A stretch of 23,348 bases of DNA from a virus: IMG/VR virus record IMGVR_UViG_3300022074_000389, positions 1-23,348 of that record. One strand, 5' to 3'. The notes under the pieces are model-generated. The model did not search any database. It was not told where the DNA came from and worked only from the letters and a program-made list of their open reading frames with translations. Positions 1-13,876 of this stretch are shown here, in pieces. A program made the translations under genes and the position numbers. Numbering within the stretch: position 1 is the first letter of the stretch; every line of letters starts with the position of its first letter.

Positions 1-479
1 AACTTGCCTACTGCTTTGCTGACAGCCTCCATCTCGCTTTCCTCCACCTGTAGATCCCCGTCGCATTGCAGGTCCAGGATTCCGCAGAACGCTTGAAACA
101 CCTCAAGTGGACCAAGAGCTTTACCCTCCGGAGTCTTCATCCAGTTTTTGCCGAAAAACAGACGACTCGCAGTGGCAGGGAGGGTGTAGGGGCAGGTTGC
201 CATCGCTTCTTCGTCTTTATTGGCCGCCGCGATAACCAAGTTCACATAACCGATAACCATTAAAACTTTCGGCCCCGGCTCTTTCAGCTTGCCGGTACGG
301 AATCCATGAATCTGACTGCTGTGTAGGCAGGGCTCCCCCAGGGCCAGGTCAGCCAGCTTCATTAACTGGGGCTGGGTCCACTGCGAAGCAAAGATTGACC
401 ACTTGCTTTGCCACTGTTTATGACCTTTCGGCATCAGTGACGAAGGGAGCAGGCTTGCCGGCTCAGGGTGGCCGTCCAT
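1..479 (-). CDS. unrecognised protein, partial (3' end beyond left edge)
   Basis: An open frame runs leftward from an ATG at 479-477 to the window edge with no stop, giving at least 159 residues. It begins MDGHPEPASLLPSS and holds phrases such as KGHKQWQSKWSIFASQW, SSQIHGFRTGKLKEPGPK and LGPLEVFQAFCGILDL. Upstream the frame is closed by a TAG at 522-524 and has no other ATG, GTG or TTG, so this start is firm if the gene is real. Codon use and amino-acid mix look like a soluble cytoplasmic protein; I see no signal peptide or clear membrane segment. The middle has a hydrophobic stretch (VLMVIGYVNLVIAAAN) that could be a core strand-helix. I do not recognise the family. It points the same way as the primase-helicase gene, about 420 bases downstream of it, so it may be a separate unit on that strand. 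Confidence 0.72.
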   Translation of the reverse strand, partial: MDGHPEPASLLPSSLMPKGHKQWQSKWSIFASQWTQPQLMKLADLALGEPCLHSSQIHGFRTGKLKEPGPKVLMVIGYVNLVIAAANKDEEAMATCPYTLPATASRLFFGKNWMKTPEGKALGPLEVFQAFCGILDLQCDGDLQVEESEMEAVSKAVGK

Positions 480-901
480 GGGTCGTATAAAGCAAGGGGA
501 ACTCGTCTGGCGAGAATAAACCTATTTACCTATTTCAAATCAGCATAAATAAGGACAGGTTTCGCCTTCGGCTGGAAATCCCGTTCTATCGGGCCCATCG
601 AACTGGGTAGCGCCGTAAAAATACCTAGACCGTAATTGGATAAATACCTAAAAAAAGCTCTGAGGGGGTGTGTTGTAAGTTTTGTCCTTTAATTCGAGAA
701 CCCCTGCAATTACTGGGATTCCAATGGCCAGAAATTATTAGACTCACCTGAGACTTGTCCGTTATTACCCGTTTCATGGCCAAAACCCCCTTCATGTCCG
801 TTATTGGCCGTTAATGTCCGGAAACTAATTAGTGGCCATCGAGACTTACCAGTCATACCAAGCGATCTCGAATAAAAGGACATTTTTCTCAACACACCCG
901 G
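480..901. other. non-coding region between unknown gene and primase-helicase gene; possible replication origin
   Basis: No convincing gene is seen in these 422 bases. The left part holds repeated TACCTA words (near 520-536, 622-627 and 645-650) and two small dyads near 568-595 (GCC-TTC-GGC and CCCG-TTCTAT-CGGG). The right part (about 651-917) is a long imperfect inverted repeat enclosing repeated TGTCC and TGGCC words, described separately. Lying immediately behind a primase-helicase gene makes an origin plausible, but that is inference. Confidence 0.5.
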
Positions 902-917
902 TCAGCTTTTTTCAGCC
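651..917. repeat. long imperfect inverted repeat, arms 666-698 and 867-899 plus flanks
   Basis: Positions 666-698 read forward and 867-899 read on the other strand match at 26 of 33 positions with no gap. Conserved blocks are GGGTGTGTTG (10/10), TGTCCTTT (8/8) and ATTCGAG (7/7). The symmetry goes further outward: AAAAAAGCT occurs at about 652-660 and, inverted, at about 908-916 inside the last codons of the primase gene. It goes further inward through ACTGG and ATGGCCA boxes (724-730, and inverted at 833-839). The enclosed interval is about 168 bases. It could be a symmetric origin, a tiny transposon-like element with terminal repeats, or a long-range hairpin in the RNA behind the primase gene. 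No target-site duplication was seen. Confidence 0.75.
683..838. repeat. iterated TGTCC / TGGCC words (iteron-like)
   Basis: TGTCC begins at 683, 756, 795 and 815 on the plus strand, and inverted at 878-882. Two copies are part of an 11-base exact repeat TGTCCGTTATT (756-766 and 795-805). TGGCC begins at 725, 777, 805 and 833; the last two spacings are both 28 bases. Short repeats of this density beside a replication gene resemble initiator-binding iterons, but no protein in the window is a known iteron-binding initiator. Confidence 0.5.
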
Positions 918-3193
918 CAGTAGGAATAGCTCGGCCTCCCTGCCTTGCTGGTAGTGGTCGTTCTCACTCGATGGATCTTCAGCCCAGGAACTGAGAGCAG
1001 CTCACTCAGTAGCCGCCTGACCTGCCTGGACGACATAGACAACGTATTCGCAATATCTTCTCCACTCATCGCGTTGCTCTCGTCGCGGCCTTGCAGCAGT
1101 TGCAGCAGGTTGCGGGATCCTTCGCGCAGCTTGTTCAATGAGTTCGCATCCCCGTTGTTCATCGTTTCAATTTGGAAGCTCAAGTCTTCCGTGCTTCCAC
1201 TTAATAGGAAGGTGTCTCCGCCTTGTGTCACACCGGTCCGTGGCTTCAGCACCTTGAGCAAAAACTTCGGCTCATCCTTCTCGCTATTGGGATCTCGGAT
1301 GATGCCCCAGATGTCGCTGGTGCCCGCTCCGATAAATGCAGAGCCATAAAGGTCTTGCATCCCAATATCAGACCGTGGCCCAGACTTGTGCATGTTGCTC
1401 TTGCGCAGGTGGTGGGTGAGCACGATCGCGCAGCCACACTCCGCCGCCAGGCTGTTCAGCAAATACATGTAGGTGCCTATTTCGGTCTCGTTTAGGTCCG
1501 CCCCACCGCCGAACAGCGACACCATGGAGTCCATCAGCACATATTTGGCGTTGTGCTCTGTGATCCACTGGCGCAACTCAGGGAACATTCCAGCGTTGAA
1601 CTTGAACTTCACCGCCACTGATTGTTTGGGCACGTTCAACTGCATCAGCTGGTTCTTGGCCCACATGTTTGAGTCCGACTCGTCCTTCTGGACAATCAGC
1701 ACATTTCCCTTCGTGGTCTTCAATGCACCTGCAAACAGTGACCCGTTGGCTGCGGCCTCTGCCATTCGGTAGATCAGCACTGACTTTCCCACTCCCCCGT
1801 CGCTGCCAACGATCGTCAGGGCGTTGAACGCCAGTAATCTTTCGATCGCGACTTCAATCGGTTTTGCATTTCCGACCACGTCTTCCCAGAAGCCCTCAGG
1901 GGTAGGTGCTTTCTCTTCAAACAGGTGTTGCACCAAAACCTTCATCTCCTTTTCTGAACAGTCCAGGGCCTTACCTAAATTCTGATAGGCCGCTTGGCGT
2001 TCCAGTGGCGTGTCCATATCATCGATCTCTTCCATGGCCTTTTTGAAGGCCTCGACCTTTTTGAGTACAGAAACCTTGAGCTGGGTGTGATCAATGCCGG
2101 TCGGTGGCTTAGCCCACTTCGGCGGTTTCCAGCCATTTTCAACTGCAAGAGCCCATGCTGCACCCCATGGCTGCACTTCCTCACCACCAGTTCCGCTGTT
2201 GATTAGTGATTCTGCGAACGAGTGCAGTGAACCACCGTTGACCGGTTCGCTGCCTTGGGAGCCATCCCAATCAGACTTTTTGTCCCAGTCGCCTCCTTCG
2301 AGCCAGGCCCTGAAAATCGACCAATCATCAATGCCTTTCGCAAGACTCAGTACGAGACGGCGCATCACTCCGTAGTGGCCAGCAAAACCAGTCCCAGCTT
2401 TGCCTCCCCGGTATGGCCAATACTTCTGCATCTGCCTGAGCAGCTTGACTTTTCGGCCTGGACTTAACAAATCCATTGCGGATTGGTCTGATTCTCTGCT
2501 GGTGGTGCTCGTCTCCTCTTTGTTTACCTTGAGATGCTTTGTCGCCATGTGGCGCACCAAACCGAAAATCATCCACTCAGGCAGCTCCGGTATCTCAACG
2601 TCAGCCGGGCTACTGCCCTCTTGCCATCTATAGAAATACTCGTCTCCTATGGGATGCTTACCCTCGATGACGGCATGAAACATCGTCGTCTCGTCCGGCT
2701 TGTCCTTGTCTCCTTTCTTTTCGTAAAGAAACTCAAAACCCTTGGTCGGCATGTCAGCTCCGGGAATTGAAAACCCCTTTAGAAGTTCAGTCCATGCCTC
2801 TGGCACTTGCATCAATGCCCTAAATCGTCCCGGTCTGCCGCTGGTGTTGATGGGTGACGGGGGTAGGTCACTGACCGGTCGGGAGAACAGCGTCTCGAAA
2901 TCGATCGATGCAGATTTAATGATTTCTCCTGTGGGTGAGACTTCCTCTCCATCGAAATCAAGCCAACAAAGCCGCCCTACTTTCGATCCAGTCATCAGCC
3001 CGATCCCTGTGTAGATCGGCTCTGATGCCTTTTTTGCCAGAGCTTTTTCAGCTGACAGCCATTTAGACGGGTCGCTGTTCCAATTCGTCTCAATCGGTCT
3101 CTTATTGACAACACATATAAATCGAGCCGACTCAGGCAAACCAGCCAATGGACCCAAACCAATCACCTGATCACTTGATTGTTTTTCTCGCAT
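902..3193 (-). CDS. primase-helicase: N-terminal prim-pol-like domain fused to RecA-type hexameric helicase ATPase
   Basis: A 763-residue replication protein expected to make primers and unwind DNA at the phage fork. The N-terminal third resembles archaeo-eukaryotic type primase/polymerase (prim-pol) domains: LDFDGEE at residues 78-84 supplies the metal-binding D-x-D pair (D79, D81), followed by SGRPGRFRALM. The C-terminal half is a RepA/DnaB-like ATPase with Walker A GSDGGVGKS near residues 462-470, a Walker B-like strand YVLMDSM near 548-554, and a switch segment VLTHHLRKSN near 590-600. The last 70 residues look like a winged helix (MSGEDIANTLSMSSRQVRRLL). The ATG at 3191-3193 has no obvious Shine-Dalgarno. 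It is divergent from the polymerase operon across about 310 bases. The prim-pol assignment is less certain than the ATPase, because I rely mainly on the D-x-D motif and overall architecture. Confidence 0.87.
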   Translation of the reverse strand: MREKQSSDQVIGLGPLAGLPESARFICVVNKRPIETNWNSDPSKWLSAEKALAKKASEPIYTGIGLMTGSKVGRLCWLDFDGEEVSPTGEIIKSASIDFETLFSRPVSDLPPSPINTSGRPGRFRALMQVPEAWTELLKGFSIPGADMPTKGFEFLYEKKGDKDKPDETTMFHAVIEGKHPIGDEYFYRWQEGSSPADVEIPELPEWMIFGLVRHMATKHLKVNKEETSTTSRESDQSAMDLLSPGRKVKLLRQMQKYWPYRGGKAGTGFAGHYGVMRRLVLSLAKGIDDWSIFRAWLEGGDWDKKSDWDGSQGSEPVNGGSLHSFAESLINSGTGGEEVQPWGAAWALAVENGWKPPKWAKPPTGIDHTQLKVSVLKKVEAFKKAMEEIDDMDTPLERQAAYQNLGKALDCSEKEMKVLVQHLFEEKAPTPEGFWEDVVGNAKPIEVAIERLLAFNALTIVGSDGGVGKSVLIYRMAEAAANGSLFAGALKTTKGNVLIVQKDESDSNMWAKNQLMQLNVPKQSVAVKFKFNAGMFPELRQWITEHNAKYVLMDSMVSLFGGGADLNETEIGTYMYLLNSLAAECGCAIVLTHHLRKSNMHKSGPRSDIGMQDLYGSAFIGAGTSDIWGIIRDPNSEKDEPKFLLKVLKPRTGVTQGGDTFLLSGSTEDLSFQIETMNNGDANSLNKLREGSRNLLQLLQGRDESNAMSGEDIANTLSMSSRQVRRLLSELLSVPGLKIHRVRTTTTSKAGRPSYSYWAEKS

Positions 3194-7783: not shown

Positions 7784-8872
7784 CTTTTCAAGTTGCCCCC
7801 GTACCTTGACTTGGTTGCGGAGAATCGCATCAAGTGCTGAGGTTGCCAACTTATTAGGGTCAATCCAGCGTCGATAGGTCTCGGTGTGCTCTTTTTGGCT
7901 GTGACCCATAACCGCCGCCGCGGTGAACACTTCCAACTCACTACCGCCGTTGCGCCATAGCCTGCCGGCGTATGCGTGGCGCAGTGCGTAAGGCCTCCAT
8001 TTGATGCCCATTTTTATGCGCATCTTGTTCAGCCATTGCGAGCAGCCGTCATTGCGATCGACGTTGCGCTCTGACTCAGGACGTTCTGTCTTGAGGCGCA
8101 GGTCAAACATCTCAACCCACTCAAGCTGTTGGGGAATCACTGTCCGGTAGCCGGTTTTGGTTTGGTCATCAACTTGCACCAGCCAGATCCCGTCGTCGTT
8201 TTGGAGCAGCCGTGCCTCGTCGCACTCATGAGGCCGCAGTCCGTAGGTGGCCATCATTCCGAAATACCACTTGTAAGGAGCAGGTGCGGTCATGACCCAA
8301 TCAATAATCTCGTCATCGCTCGGTACGTCGGTCGGATCCATCGCTGATTTTTTAGTCAGTGGCACTCCAACCTCGGGGAACTCGATCCGGCAGATCTGCG
8401 CGATGTCCCTCAGTAAGTAATAGAGCTTTTTGTATGTGTACTGATCACGCTCGTATTTGGACAAGGCCTGTTCCAGGGCCTGGGGCGTGACTTCATCCTC
8501 CATGGGCATGAACTTCAAAGTGCCCATGTAGTTGACCTTCCAGGTTGATTCGCTGGTGCGACCAAGCGTCACCTTTTTTCTGTAAAGGGCTCTTATTGCT
8601 GCTGCCCATTTCTTTGGTGTGTCGCGTCCCGGCACTGCCGGCTTGGGAGCTTGAACCGACCAATCCGACCAGTTCCACTGACCCAAGTTCAGATCAGCTA
8701 TCGCCTTTTGCATGAGCTTTTTGGCCTTGGCTCGGTTGCGCTCGGTATCGACCATCTGCAGGGAAACCCGTTGCTGCTTCATTTTTCCGCTGCCGTCTTT
8801 GGCGGGGAACATGCCGAGCAGGTAGAGGCGATCGTTTTTGACGTTGATATTCATGGGTTGAGCTGAGCCCAT
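7745..8872 (-). CDS. int: tyrosine-family site-specific integrase
   Basis: A 375-residue tyrosine recombinase. The catalytic set is visible: Arg213 in YGLRPHE, Lys239 in QTKTGYR, Arg298 and His299 in ALRHAYAGR, His324 in MGHS, and the nucleophile Tyr333 in TETYRRW. The first His of the usual H-x-L-R-H box is Tyr here (YALRH), a known variation. The N-terminal region (residues about 15-180) has the expected strand-rich arm-binding part followed by a core-binding helical domain (LGRTSESTWKVNYMGTL). The start is ATG 8872 or the Met seven codons in (8854). A 9-bp inverted repeat overlaps or directly precedes these starts, suggesting autoregulation. The gene converges with the excisionase-like gene and is the main evidence for a temperate lifestyle. 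Confidence 0.95.
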   Translation of the reverse strand: MGSAQPMNINVKNDRLYLLGMFPAKDGSGKMKQQRVSLQMVDTERNRAKAKKLMQKAIADLNLGQWNWSDWSVQAPKPAVPGRDTPKKWAAAIRALYRKKVTLGRTSESTWKVNYMGTLKFMPMEDEVTPQALEQALSKYERDQYTYKKLYYLLRDIAQICRIEFPEVGVPLTKKSAMDPTDVPSDDEIIDWVMTAPAPYKWYFGMMATYGLRPHECDEARLLQNDDGIWLVQVDDQTKTGYRTVIPQQLEWVEMFDLRLKTERPESERNVDRNDGCSQWLNKMRIKMGIKWRPYALRHAYAGRLWRNGGSELEVFTAAAVMGHSQKEHTETYRRWIDPNKLATSALDAILRNQVKVRGQLEKSFNREDGSHVDA

Positions 8873-9084: not shown

Positions 9085-9189
9085 TCAGCTGGCCAGGGCG
9101 ATCTCCAATTTCTCCCTTAACTCGCCGGAGTTATACGTTTTTTTAGTGGGTGACAGGGGTTTGCTTCTCTTCCATACTGGTATCCATAC
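9085..9189 (-). CDS. possible 3' fragment of a leftward gene ending before the terminators
   Basis: A leftward frame with TGA at 9085-9087 ends TYNSGELREKLEIALAS, which looks like a natural amphipathic C-terminus. The terminator hairpin begins 26 bases later. The frame is open upstream to 9291, but there it overlaps the rightward gene at 9225 and shows no good start. It may be a chance frame, or a short copy of a host gene's 3' end carried in the attachment site, as some integrases use. The limits given here cover only the more protein-like part. Confidence 0.2.
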   Translation of the reverse strand, partial: VWIPVWKRSKPLSPTKKTYNSGELREKLEIALAS

Positions 9190-9680: not shown

Positions 9681-10284
9681 CTTCTTTTACTGGTTCGATT
9701 CAGGGCGCAACGCTAATCAGAATGCCGCTGTCGATTTGCTCTTGGAGCAACTTCCTTCCTCACTAAAACGTGACGATGCTGCATGGGTGCGGCTGTACCG
9801 GAAACCGGTACGGGTTCCACAAGATGAAATGCCTTCGGCGGCCATCGACTTGATTTGTGAGTTTGAAGGCTTCAGGTCCCATCCCTATGACGACGGCATG
9901 GCGGTCGCCACGATCGGCTACGGCTCAACCTTTTATGAAGACGGAATGCCGGTGGAATATTCGGACAGTCCGATTGACGAACCGACCGCTCGTCGGATGA
10001 TGCTCAACATCGCCAAGACTGATTTTTGGGATGTGTTGCGCGTTCGCATTCCCTACTGGAACGAAATGACCGAAGGGCAGAGGGGTGCTCTCTTGTCTTT
10101 CGGATACAACGTGGGCTCGGGCTTCTACGGTTCACCTGGATTTGCCACCATCACTCAAGTCTTAAGCGACAAAGCATGGGACGAGGTTCCTGACGCCATG
10201 CGGCTCTACGTCAATCCGGGCACCTCTGTCGAAGCAGGTTTGCGCCGTCGCCGCGAAGCTGAGATTGCTATGTGGACAAGTTAG
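9661..10284 (+). CDS. T4-type lysozyme (GH24 endolysin) with N-terminal extension
   Basis: A 207-residue peptidoglycan-cleaving endolysin for host lysis. Residues about 60-207 match the T4 lysozyme (GH24) family: Glu69 in FEGFRS, Asp78 in YDDG, Thr84 in ATIGYGS. The spacing of nine and six residues equals that of the T4 catalytic E11-D20-T26 set. Further family phrases are LLSFGYNVGSGFYGS and GLRRRREAEIAMW. The first 55 residues (MTINLRDFFYWFDSGRNANQNAA) are extra compared with T4 and of unknown role; they contain no hydrophobic signal-anchor, so export would need a holin, which I do not see. It converges with the tail-fibre gene, with 28 bases between the stops. Confidence 0.94.
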   Translation: MTINLRDFFYWFDSGRNANQNAAVDLLLEQLPSSLKRDDAAWVRLYRKPVRVPQDEMPSAAIDLICEFEGFRSHPYDDGMAVATIGYGSTFYEDGMPVEYSDSPIDEPTARRMMLNIAKTDFWDVLRVRIPYWNEMTEGQRGALLSFGYNVGSGFYGSPGFATITQVLSDKAWDEVPDAMRLYVNPGTSVEAGLRRRREAEIAMWTS

Positions 10285-10312
10285 GCAATACCCGCAGACA
10301 CTCCAGCTTCAA

Positions 10313-13300
10313 TCATTGTGCTTCTAGTGCTGCGATCCGTGCTTCTAATTGTTCAATGCGTGCCATTGCTTCCTGCAAAGCACCGAAACCTTTTGTCATT
10401 ATGATACTATTTTTTACTGATTTTTGACCAGGGACCATGGCTTCTTCATCATCTAGGTCATCAGTATCAACAAGTTGAGGGCAAATTTCTTCTACTTCCT
10501 GAGCAATAAAACCAAGTAGTTTTTCCGGTCCAAAACCAACATCTTCAATGAAGTTAAAATTGACGAGTCTTAACGCCTTCACATCGTCCCATTGAGACTG
10601 AGCGTCAACGATGTTTTCTTTTAGCCTTTCGTCAGACAAACTGGTGTATTGATTTGCAGTATTCTGGACACCACCAGTAGTACGGACTCGAAATACCTCA
10701 GCGCCATCAGCTTGGTCAGCTCTACTAGAACTTCGATAACCAGAAATAATATAACGATTAGTACTGCTACCTTGGGCGGTCTTAAAAATATGTGCTCTTG
10801 TTGGAGCACCTTGTGCGGAAAAAATCTGTTGACCACTACTTTGAATCTGATGCCTACGATTACCACCAGTTATAAGAGCCATATGATTAGTACCGATTCT
10901 ATACATTCCAGTATCGTCATCACCGTTAAATTTGAAAGCAGCATTATTTTGTGTACCGTTACCAGCCCGAACTCTTTCCGATGCCTGAAGATTAACAAGT
11001 GAAAGAGTACCATTTCTGTTTAAGGTATAACGAGTGGTCGTATTTTCACGAATGTTAAGATTGCCAGCATTTAGGTCAAGATATAAGTGAGAACCATTAA
11101 AGAATAGTTCCGCATCGTCACCAGATCCAAGGCGAAGGATATCGTTGTCAGCTAAGTCAATAGCACTACGGAAATTTGCAACGCCATTAAATGTGATTGT
11201 TCCGGTAGCCGTATCGTTCGCATCGGAACGTAGGAATGAGCCGCCCTGGATGCCATCGACTGTGTCTGCGTCTAGGCCAGAACCACTACCGTCGTTGCCA
11301 GCGTGCCATACCTTATTAGTACCTGCTGCAAAAACATTTTGCCCCGTATTACCGAGATATATGTTTTTATTGGTTGCGTACCAATTGATATAACAACTAC
11401 CATTTGAAGGGCCATCGATATGCAGGTTGCTGCTGCAGCGAATGCGTGCAATGTTACTACTGTTCGAGGAAGACCACCCGCCGATGTATAGATGAGTGCT
11501 ATACGAAGCACTTCTGTCAACTTCTATAGCATGGCCGTTGTCTGATGAACCGACATTTATCTTGTTGCTGACAGTTAGATTGTTGCTAATATTAAAGTCC
11601 TGAAAATATCCGTTGTCCCAGTATCTACTCGATGTGCCAATTGTTCCTGTATTATTACCAGAAGGTCTGATAATACCACTGTCTTCAAGAATTATTCGAT
11701 CGGCTCCATTGTCTTGGAACACAATGCCGTTCTGCTTTAAGTTGTAATACAACCAGCCATTTGAACTAAAGTGAATACTTACATCATCACTACTACCAAA
11801 GTCTAAGTATTGGTTATCAGATAAATCTATGTTACCACGGATATTGACCCTCCCATTAAATGTCTTAGTATTTGATATAGTTTGATCGCCGGTTGTTCGT
11901 AATACTGTGCTATCAACGTGGACAGAATCAGCAGTAACATTGATGCCACTGCCTTGACCAACATTAAGAGTTCTATCTTGAGAAAGTGTTCCACCACCGG
12001 TCAATCCGCTGCCAGAAATAACTGAACGCCCGCAGTTGGTAGAGGTACTTGCTGTGACTGCGTTACCATTCAAAGTACCTACAAATGTAGTAGCTCTGAT
12101 TTTGTTTTCGCTTGGATTAAATCCAATAGTTGATTCGTTGTCTGTCTTTAGACGTTGGTTAGTAGCAGTGGCTTTGTCATCATCAATAAAAACAGGCCGA
12201 TGCCATGCGTTGCCTGTATCGTGGTCAATACGAGCATTTGTGGCATTAGTTGCGGTGGTTGCAGTAGAAGCATTGCCGGTGCAACTTGCAGAAGAACCAG
12301 TAATGTTGCTGCTAATTGTTGCAGGTAAGCGGGCATCAGAAATAGTCCCCGTGTTTAGATTGCCTGCGTTTCGATAGTAACTGCCGTGCTGACCATCGAG
12401 CTGATCAGCATTAGTTGCAGTAGCTGCATTGCCGGTGCAACTTGCAGAAGAACCCGTGATGTCACTGCTAATAGTTCCAGGTAGGCGAGCATCAGGAATA
12501 GTTCCCGTGTTTAGATTGCCTGCGTTTCGATAGTAACTTCCATGTTGCCCGTCTAGCGTATCAGCATCAATATTGAGTGCATCAATATCAGCTTTTGTCT
12601 GGTCCGCAGTAGCTCCAGACTCAATACCGTTCAACTTGGTGTGATCAGCATCAGTAAAAACATTGCTATCACTAGCAGAGCCTACAAGAGTTCTGATTTC
12701 AGCGGCTGTCTGGTCTGCTGTAGCTCCGGCCTCGATATTATTTAGCTTGGTCTTGTCTGCACCGGTCATCAGGCCGGAATTACCACCTGCTGCGACATTG
12801 GGCAGTGTCGCGTTAGTTCCAGTCGAAGATGCAATCGTTCGCGTGGAAGCTGTGTAGCTCAGATCAGTAGAGCCATCTGGACCGGCGGGGCCTTGTGGGC
12901 CAGTAGACCCGGTAGGTCCAGCCGGTCCCTGAGCACCCGTATTTCCGATGGGTCCCTGTGGACCTGTATTTCCTACGGGTCCTTGGGGTCCGGTTGGGCC
13001 TGCAGGACCTTGAGCACCCGTATTTCCGATGGGTCCCTGAGCACCCGTATTTCCGATGGGTCCCTGGGGACCTGTGTTTCCTACGGGTCCTTGAGCACCC
13101 GTAGCACCCGTAGCACCCCTTAAATCAGTTGTCGAAAAACTGAGGCCGTCGTCTGATGTGAAAAAGATGCGACCGCTTGTCGGCGAGTAGTAACCACCAG
13201 TGAATCCGTCGCCGTCTTCGCCCGCCACGCCCTGGGGGCCTTGCGCACCAGCTGCACCTCTGAGATTTCCTGTGGAAAAGCCCAACCCATCATTTGACGT

Positions 13301-13876
13301 GAAGGTGACTTCGCCGGTAGTTGAGTCATAGGAACCCCCGGTAAAACCATCACCATCTGCGCCATCCGCACCATCTGCCCCTCTTAAATCACCAGTAATA
13401 AATCCAAGCCCGTCGTCTGAAGTGAACGTAATTCGACCAGTTGCCGAGTCATAGCTCGCACCCGTGAATCCTGAGCCGTCAGCACCATCGGCACCTCGCA
13501 GATCCCCGGTCGAGAATCCGATTCCGTCGTCAGACGTGAAGGTGATTTGCCCCGTGCTTGGGTCGTAACTTCCGCCAGTAAAGCCAGGGCCGGTTGGTCC
13601 TGATACGCCTGCACAAATAATCCATGCCGTGCCGTTCCACACCCGTAGCTGATCAGTTGTCTGATCCAGCCAGAACTTGCCCTTTAGTGGGTTGGTAGGT
13701 GCATGGGTGTTGTAATAGATCCCGCCTACTTCGTAAACATTGCCGTCTGTTCCTTTGACCTGCAGGTAAGGGCCTGTTTCGTGGTTATTGACCGCAATTT
13801 CACCAAACTCAAGATCTGTCGAACTCGCATTGGTGTATGCGTTGTTCGAGTGCTTGTGAATAAGCTTGACGGCCAT
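10313..13876 (-). CDS. collagen-like tail fibre with C-terminal S74 self-cleaving chaperone
   Basis: A 1187-residue trimeric tail fibre. Residues 1-88 are a virion-anchoring-like domain shared with the adjacent 90-aa protein. Residues about 95-250 hold four repeats of the type [12 protein letters not shown]...TFTSDDGxGF...GDLRGA. About 253-333 is a collagen-like Gly-X-Y tract. Later come [14 protein letters not shown] repeats and a 52-residue tandem repeat ([20 protein letters not shown]). The central and distal parts are beta-rich ([21 protein letters not shown]). The end is an S74 intramolecular chaperone: SDERLKENI with nucleophile Ser1081 and Lys1086, about 107 residues, ending in a short coiled coil. 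Cleavage before Ser1081 after trimer assembly is known for the family. The start has GGAG nearby. The distal half is much more AT-rich than the proximal half. Confidence 0.95.
12243..12556 (-). repeat. 156-bp tandem duplication inside fibre gene (52 residues per unit)
   Basis: Two successive units encode [20 protein letters not shown] followed by DARLP and [11 protein letters not shown]. Equivalent points are 156 bases apart (for example TCGATAGTAA at 12371 and 12527), keeping frame. Differences are mostly single bases, so the duplication is fairly recent or kept alike by recombination. Confidence 0.8.
12872..13117 (-). repeat. collagen-like Gly-X-Y repeat tract with 27-bp units
   Basis: This tract encodes about 80 residues of Gly-X-Y triplets such as [10 protein letters not shown] 27-base unit, GAGCACCCGTATTTCCGATG plus GGTCCCT, starts at 12931, 13012 and 13039; spacings of 81 and 27 are multiples of 27. 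Slippage here would change fibre length in steps of nine residues without breaking the frame. Confidence 0.88.
13118..13590 (-). repeat. four diverged tandem repeats in fibre shaft (about 39-48 residues each)
   Basis: Four copies of a module beginning GFTGxxY, continuing TSxDGxxFxT and ending DLRGA or NLRGA are separated by short DGADG-type Gly-rich linkers. Copies differ at many synonymous and non-synonymous sites, so they are older than the collagen repeats beside them. Confidence 0.82.

Follow-up and report, generated by a model that had tools for sequence, protein, structure and literature searches.

A probable iteron replication origin directly behind the primase-helicase gene of a temperate siphovirus-like cyanophage

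A long imperfect inverted repeat occupies the gap between the primase-helicase gene of a 23-kb virus record and its same-strand neighbour, which we call gene X. We propose that this element is the iteron replication origin of a temperate siphovirus-like cyanophage, situated directly behind the gene for its own initiator, and consider this reading probable. Read from sequence, it draws on the dyad itself, on the synteny conserved among relatives, on the short words iterated in the relatives' gaps, on the restriction of three such words to the gaps, and on the joint change of word and initiator domain.

The window (the whole stretch of DNA analysed; 23,348 nucleotides, positions 1 to 23,348 of IMG/VR record IMGVR_UViG_3300022074_000389) contains genes for a primase-helicase, a family A DNA polymerase, a dCTP deaminase and an integrase, together with tail genes. 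The primase-helicase, our putative initiator, is a protein of 763 residues encoded at 902–3193 on the minus strand, with a putatively PrimPol-related N-terminal part, a RecA-like AAA_25 helicase domain (Pfam, E=2.9e-17) and a predicted C-terminal winged helix at about residues 683–763. Pfam gave no match to the Prim-Pol domain PF09250 in the window protein; this domain was matched in the protein of a relative (L103, E=5.4e-7). Gene X (3–479, minus strand) runs into the edge of the window and is the conserved downstream neighbour of the element in relatives. It matched no Pfam or PHROG family, and its best PDB sequence match had an E value of 0.7. The closest match to the integrase is that of Prochlorococcus cyanophage P-SS2 (identity 30%, covering 42% of its length). 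Given also the weak matches of the primase in Synechococcus phages S-LBS1 and S-CBS4, the host is likely to be a picocyanobacterium. Elsewhere in the window, a protein of 1187 residues (10313–13876) contains a collagen-like stretch of GPQGP repeats, and its C-terminal part presumably resembles the self-cleaving chaperones of tail fibres.

The arms of the inverted repeat lie at 653–716 (plus strand) and 849–912 (minus strand); without gaps they are 64 nt each, 72% complementary and 132 nt apart, and they score 28 when matches count +1 and mismatches −1. In comparison, 200 dinucleotide shuffles of positions 640–925 gave a mean score of 8.9 and a maximum of 15, and among 162 sliding 286-nt stretches of the record no other stretch scored above 17. 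The inverted repeat is thus real and far above chance. The 33-base arms described in an earlier note on this DNA form a core contained within the 64-nt arms, and the symmetry continues as that note described, reaching the primase stop region (AAAAAAGC ... GCTTTTTT) on the outside and passing through ACTGG and ATGGCCA on the inside.

Each arm belongs to one of two units in opposite orientation (649–740 and 825–916, identical at 60 of 94 aligned positions) that share a layout of outer word GGGTGTGTTG, iteron TGTCCTTTnATTCGAGA, box and then a TGGCCA word. The outer symmetric word GGGTGTGTTG is found at 666–675 (plus strand), with its partner CAACACACCC at 890–899, and the iteron TGTCCTTTA at 683–691 (plus strand) is matched by TGTCCTTTT at 874–882 in the opposite orientation (minus strand). 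Further iterons lie between the units on the plus strand: TGTCCGTTA at 756–764 and again at 795–803, each the start of an exact 11-mer, TGTCCGTTATT, whose two copies at 756 and 795 agree with the exact 11-base repeat of the earlier note, and the degenerate TGGCCGTTA at 805–813. TGGCC words, which had been described as recurring at 28-base steps, occur at 725, 777, 805 and 833, so that the first step is 52 nt and the next two are exactly 28 nt each. Taken alone, the window's own iterated words are degenerate and weak. Its best exact 8-mer is not significant, as 185 of 200 shuffles reach the same count, and its best 9-mer (one mismatch allowed) has four copies, a number reached by 1 of 40 shuffles and present in 3 of 60 control stretches. 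The assignment of the window therefore rests on synteny, the dyad and the relatives. Between the repeat and gene X lies an AT-rich 40-mer (513–552, minus strand; GC 0.23) that may serve as an unwinding region and ranks among the most AT-rich 40-mers of the whole record, genes included. Cumulative GC skew, a check suggested for the full genome, was run over the 23-kb fragment alone and shows no evident shift where the element lies.

Searches with the primase, gene X and the polymerase recovered metagenomic contigs with the same gene order; a DNA search of phages and two scans of genome contigs yielded no relatives. Among the 34 contigs whose primase end could be read, gene X lies 220–431 nt downstream of the primase in 30 and was not found within the sequence examined in the other four, and none of the 34 lacks the gap. 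This count leaves out contigs with a truncated primase (L004, L009, L010, L121, L122, L128 and L129), the weak matches L131–L136 and repeat fetches of the same contigs (for example L011, L101, L123, L124 and L130). Comparison of the locus across relatives, as the earlier note had advised, thus finds the gap kept throughout and its words iterated but different between phages.

Each gap typically carries one short word, iterated in one or both orientations and differing between phages (for example GTTGGTTTA, AACTGTCG, TGTCCGAG, AAAGCGCG and CTTTTACT), and AT-rich stretches are also present in the gaps. When the 34 gaps were reduced to a less redundant set of 27, a single 9-mer (one mismatch allowed) was iterated 4–13 times in 24 of them, a count reached by at most 2 of 40 shuffles and, for 20 of the 24, by none. 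No significant 9-mer was found by this measure in L005, L116 and L120. With exact 8-mers, no more than 5 of 200 shuffles attained the observed count for 30 of the 34 contigs; the exceptions were the window, L005, L119 and L120. Sixty control stretches from the same loci contained two or three copies in 57 cases, four in 3 and never more; four copies is also the number found in the window, L003, L119 and L138. Three words were searched for across whole records, and every copy fell within a gap: 12 of 12 copies of GTTGGTTTA in three records, 12 of 12 of AACTGTCGA in one 42-kb record and 8 of 8 of TGTCCGAG in two records.

We take the C-terminal winged-helix domain of the initiator as the probable reader of the word. 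Between L096 and L103, whose initiators are unrelated and whose words differ, gene X is 91% identical; between L002 and L005, whose initiators are 55% identical and whose words again differ, it is 95% identical. Because gene X is this similar where initiator and word differ, it is not the reader of the word. L096 and L103 are two contigs of one metagenome in which the whole initiator gene has been replaced by one of an unrelated helicase family, and the gap with it. A smaller exchange separates L105 from L106, which are about 99–100% identical in DNA up to nucleotide 1953 of the primase gene and again from nucleotide 2559. The intervening block of low identity (605 nt, from codon 652) comprises the initiator's final 99 residues, the gap and some 77 nt at the start of gene X, and the words of the two contigs are ATACCGGC and GGCGGACA; adjacency alone could explain why domain and gap changed together here. 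L106 and L107, with C-terminal parts that are 97% identical, have the same word.

A group of closely related initiators separates the wing from the rest of the protein. In L108, L109, L111 and L114 the N-terminal parts are 97–99% identical and the recognition helix is identical, and among the pairs listed the wings are 35–47% identical, except for L111 and L114 (88%). Their words have TGTCCG in common and differ in the bases that follow. In the DNA of L108 and L109 the wing is 36% identical, the next 120 nt are 90–100% identical and the iteron zone is 53–83% identical; since wing and iterons are split by a conserved 120 nt, simple linkage does not explain this pair. The conserved stretch was seen in one of three pairs profiled, with identity there lowered to 61–86% in L108/L114 and L109/L111. 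Conversely, the N-terminal parts of L108 and L115 are just 84% identical, yet they have wing residues and the word TGTCCGTG in common. Across 14 of the 16 loci of this initiator family (L112 and L113 repeat L111), word similarity tracked wing identity once N-terminal identity was controlled for (partial r 0.56, 0 of 5000 permutations), and the N-terminal part retained a smaller correlation of its own with the word (0.28, 153 of 5000 permutations); words and columns were chosen after viewing the data and the loci are related, which makes these statistics a guide rather than a clean test. Together, the block swap and the wing/word correlation offer indirect support for specificity of the C-terminal domain towards its own iterons.

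AlphaFold2 predicts three helices and a two-stranded wing for the C-terminal domain both of the window protein (mean pLDDT 69.7) and of the L108 family (74.9), values that give the winged-helix assignment moderate confidence. In Foldseek searches winged-helix regulators ranked first for the C-terminal domains, with none at E≤0.001. The residues that vary within the L108 family fall in and around the predicted wing (strands 73–80 and 86–93).

In the proposed origin, the C-terminal winged helix of the primase-helicase would bind the iterated words, and the two inverted iteron units, with the iterons between them, would load two helicase rings facing each other. Helicase and primase would go on to launch two forks, possibly at the AT-rich stretch beside the repeat, and the dyad of binding sites would be the source of the long inverted repeat. 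We infer origin activity, as we do the binding, ring loading, melting and priming that make up this scheme. The earlier note had favoured protein binding sites over a random hairpin, and the phage-specific words, their match to the winged helix and the confinement of the three searched words to the gaps all point the same way.

More tentatively, and with the view that this extension is rather likelier to be wrong than right, we suggest how such a code might be organised. A constant recognition helix would read the constant core TGTCCG and the wing the next 2–4 bases, such that near-identical phages would have mutually incompatible origins; the code would have diversified by swapping of domain-plus-origin blocks and by paired changes of wing and iteron, under pressure from co-infecting phages, prophages or satellites that compete for the same initiator. 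If the proposed reading is true, it points to the replication origins and initiators of a group of uncultured, probably cyanobacterial temperate phages, and the near-identical initiators with different words would allow the winged-helix/iteron code to be tested directly with small DNA-binding domains. The same would hold for the forces behind the diversification of phage origins.

The gaps also contain a second element, a sequence of about 25 nt near GAAATCCCTTGnGnnGnAAGGG that occurs once or twice in most of them, including those beside unrelated DUF3987 initiators, and that we regard as a conserved sequence box. A model of this box (R1), built without the window, had 46 matches in 31 loci, of which 40 lie in the gap, one (L142) just past the stretch read and five elsewhere; 30 of the matches are the copies that built the model and so match by construction. 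In the window, a candidate box (CGAGATCGCTTGGTATGACTGGTA) at 847–870 on the minus strand scores 8.5 bits (E=0.09 for the whole record), which is suggestive only, and a candidate inverted copy at 696–720 on the plus strand is weak (5.3 bits, E=0.95). The top R1 match in the window lies inside the primase gene (2731–2752, E=0.049), above both matches in the element, and the box is therefore not established in the window. A hairpin within the box was considered and rejected, pairing being 62.4% against 60.9% in column shuffles (113 of 500) and RNAalifold predicting no pair. Gene X is a candidate reader of the box. By analogy with the ssiA/ssiB priming sites of RSF1010, which are described in part of the text of PMC4234260, we also considered the box as a putative priming site. 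Strong copies lie several kilobases from the primase gap in L126 (~10274–10311) and L097 (~9108–9144); the L097 copy, AACCCCTGCAGCGCAGGGGTT, is nearly palindromic, as is that of L126, and the sequence that follows is similar in both phages. In L142 (7030–7429) a tandem repeat of about 24 nt (GCAGCTAAGCCCCTTGGCACTTAC) comes right after a DUF3987-family initiator and combines the word with part of the box.

Of the other explanations, an operator, at which the winged helix would control its own operon or gene X downstream by binding the iterons, would yield the same correlation between word and wing. The cluster does sit between two co-directional genes and upstream of gene X, and one promoter-like match falls within the element (761–734, minus strand; 0.5 expected by chance). 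However, up to 13 copies over 200–400 nt behind a gene exceed what an operator usually needs, the reading domain is fused to a replicative primase-helicase, and no copy of the searched words lies elsewhere in their records, the stretch ahead of the primase gene included; we hold an operator to be unlikely. It is quite improbable that the element serves in cis for something else, for example packaging or partition, with gene X or a host protein as its reader. In its favour, the second box is common to phages with unrelated helicase families and gene X is a constant neighbour, whereas the words follow changes in the initiator rather than in gene X; a packaging- or partition-type site could still hold for the second box alone.

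The strong hairpin first suggested a structured non-coding RNA or an unusual terminator, as the element lies behind the primase gene when read on the coding strand, is flanked by A and T tracts and folds strongly (z −6.7 on the minus strand and −5.0 on the plus strand), with the relatives L002, L003 and L006 folding at z −5.8 to −9.2. Across 16 loci (S-LBS1 and S-CBS4 left out), however, the two strands fold equally (mean z −3.4 and −3.6, Wilcoxon p 0.72), which is what one would expect of DNA with paired binding sites. Since folding favours neither strand, a structured RNA is disfavoured. Since gaps of different families cannot be aligned, base pairing was assessed for the conserved box alone, where it does not exceed that of column shuffles; moreover, no Rfam family was matched, no terminator-like site was found in 400–1000 and the words are also repeated in direct orientation, all of which makes an RNA highly improbable. 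A miniature mobile element, the alternative to an origin that the earlier note had offered, would account for long imperfect terminal repeats with no gene inside. Against it stand the single copy in its own record, the lack of a visible flanking target duplication and internal words that differ between relatives at the same place. Retention of the segment by all relatives had been named as evidence against recent mobility, and with no empty site among the 34 contigs a recent mobile element is disfavoured. We consider this explanation scarcely credible; the origin half of that earlier pair, by comparison, is favoured by words that track the winged helix and, where searched, occur only in gaps.

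An iteron origin behind its own initiator gene would follow a known design. As described in part of PMC7581432, the C-terminal domains of SaPI Rep and SCCmec Cch2 bind iterons that lie immediately behind the respective genes, and the C-terminal domain of Cch2 alone binds direct repeats in the gap behind its gene; for the putative Cch2 origin, with its different helicase family, three iterons are reported there. Downstream short iterons of this type are present across the family studied here (24 of 27 gaps) and weak in the window itself. SaPIs are satellites in Gram-positive hosts and use helicases of other families, whereas here the bearer is a tailed phage with a RecA-like AAA_25 helicase or, in relatives, a DUF3987 protein, and there are two inverted units and a conserved second box. 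The origin of the Sulfolobus plasmid pRN1 is a large stem-loop directly behind a primase-helicase gene whose product has a C-terminal winged helix, and phage BIP-1 has been likened to pRN1 by the authors' analogy; the same source (PMC4234260, seen in part), which also mentions P4 alpha, gives the pRN1 origin as one without iterons, whereas iterons dominate the family studied here. The window resembles pRN1 in its large stem-loop just behind the gene and differs in its helicase, which is RecA-like AAA_25 and not of the SF3 type found in pRN1. As to the archaeo-eukaryotic type of primase domain that belongs to the pRN1 design, the PF09250 match lies in L103 and not in the window protein. Phage P4 alpha is a further parallel. 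In Vibrio PLE, initiator specificity and origin are swappable modules, and only cognate pairs replicate (PMC8263062, in part); exchange of initiator specificity together with the origin is the likeness to our phages, and the difference is that PLE RepA is a RepA_N protein without a predicted helicase or primase (PMC7145576, likewise). The available text of these papers does not describe a series of near-identical initiators with differing wings and words, the conserved second box or such an origin in this phage group. In literature searches for cyanophage origins with iterons or inverted repeats, none of the titles listed describes such an element.

The arrangement recurs in a cultured phage. 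S-LBS1, an integrase-bearing cyanosiphovirus, has 10 copies of CTGCCTAAC in both orientations directly after its PrimPol-VapE gene (L089:8089–8493, MG271909), and the arrangement is therefore not confined to metagenome contigs. By the same measure, no significant word was found in the gaps of S-2L, S-EIV1 and S-CBS4. S-LBS1 differs from the window in its helicase family, and the search of the phage collection with gene X gave 0 matches. The words "repeat" and "iteron" are absent from the main text of the S-LBS1 genome paper. Part of the 8089–8493 stretch recurs at the end of the S-LBS1 record.
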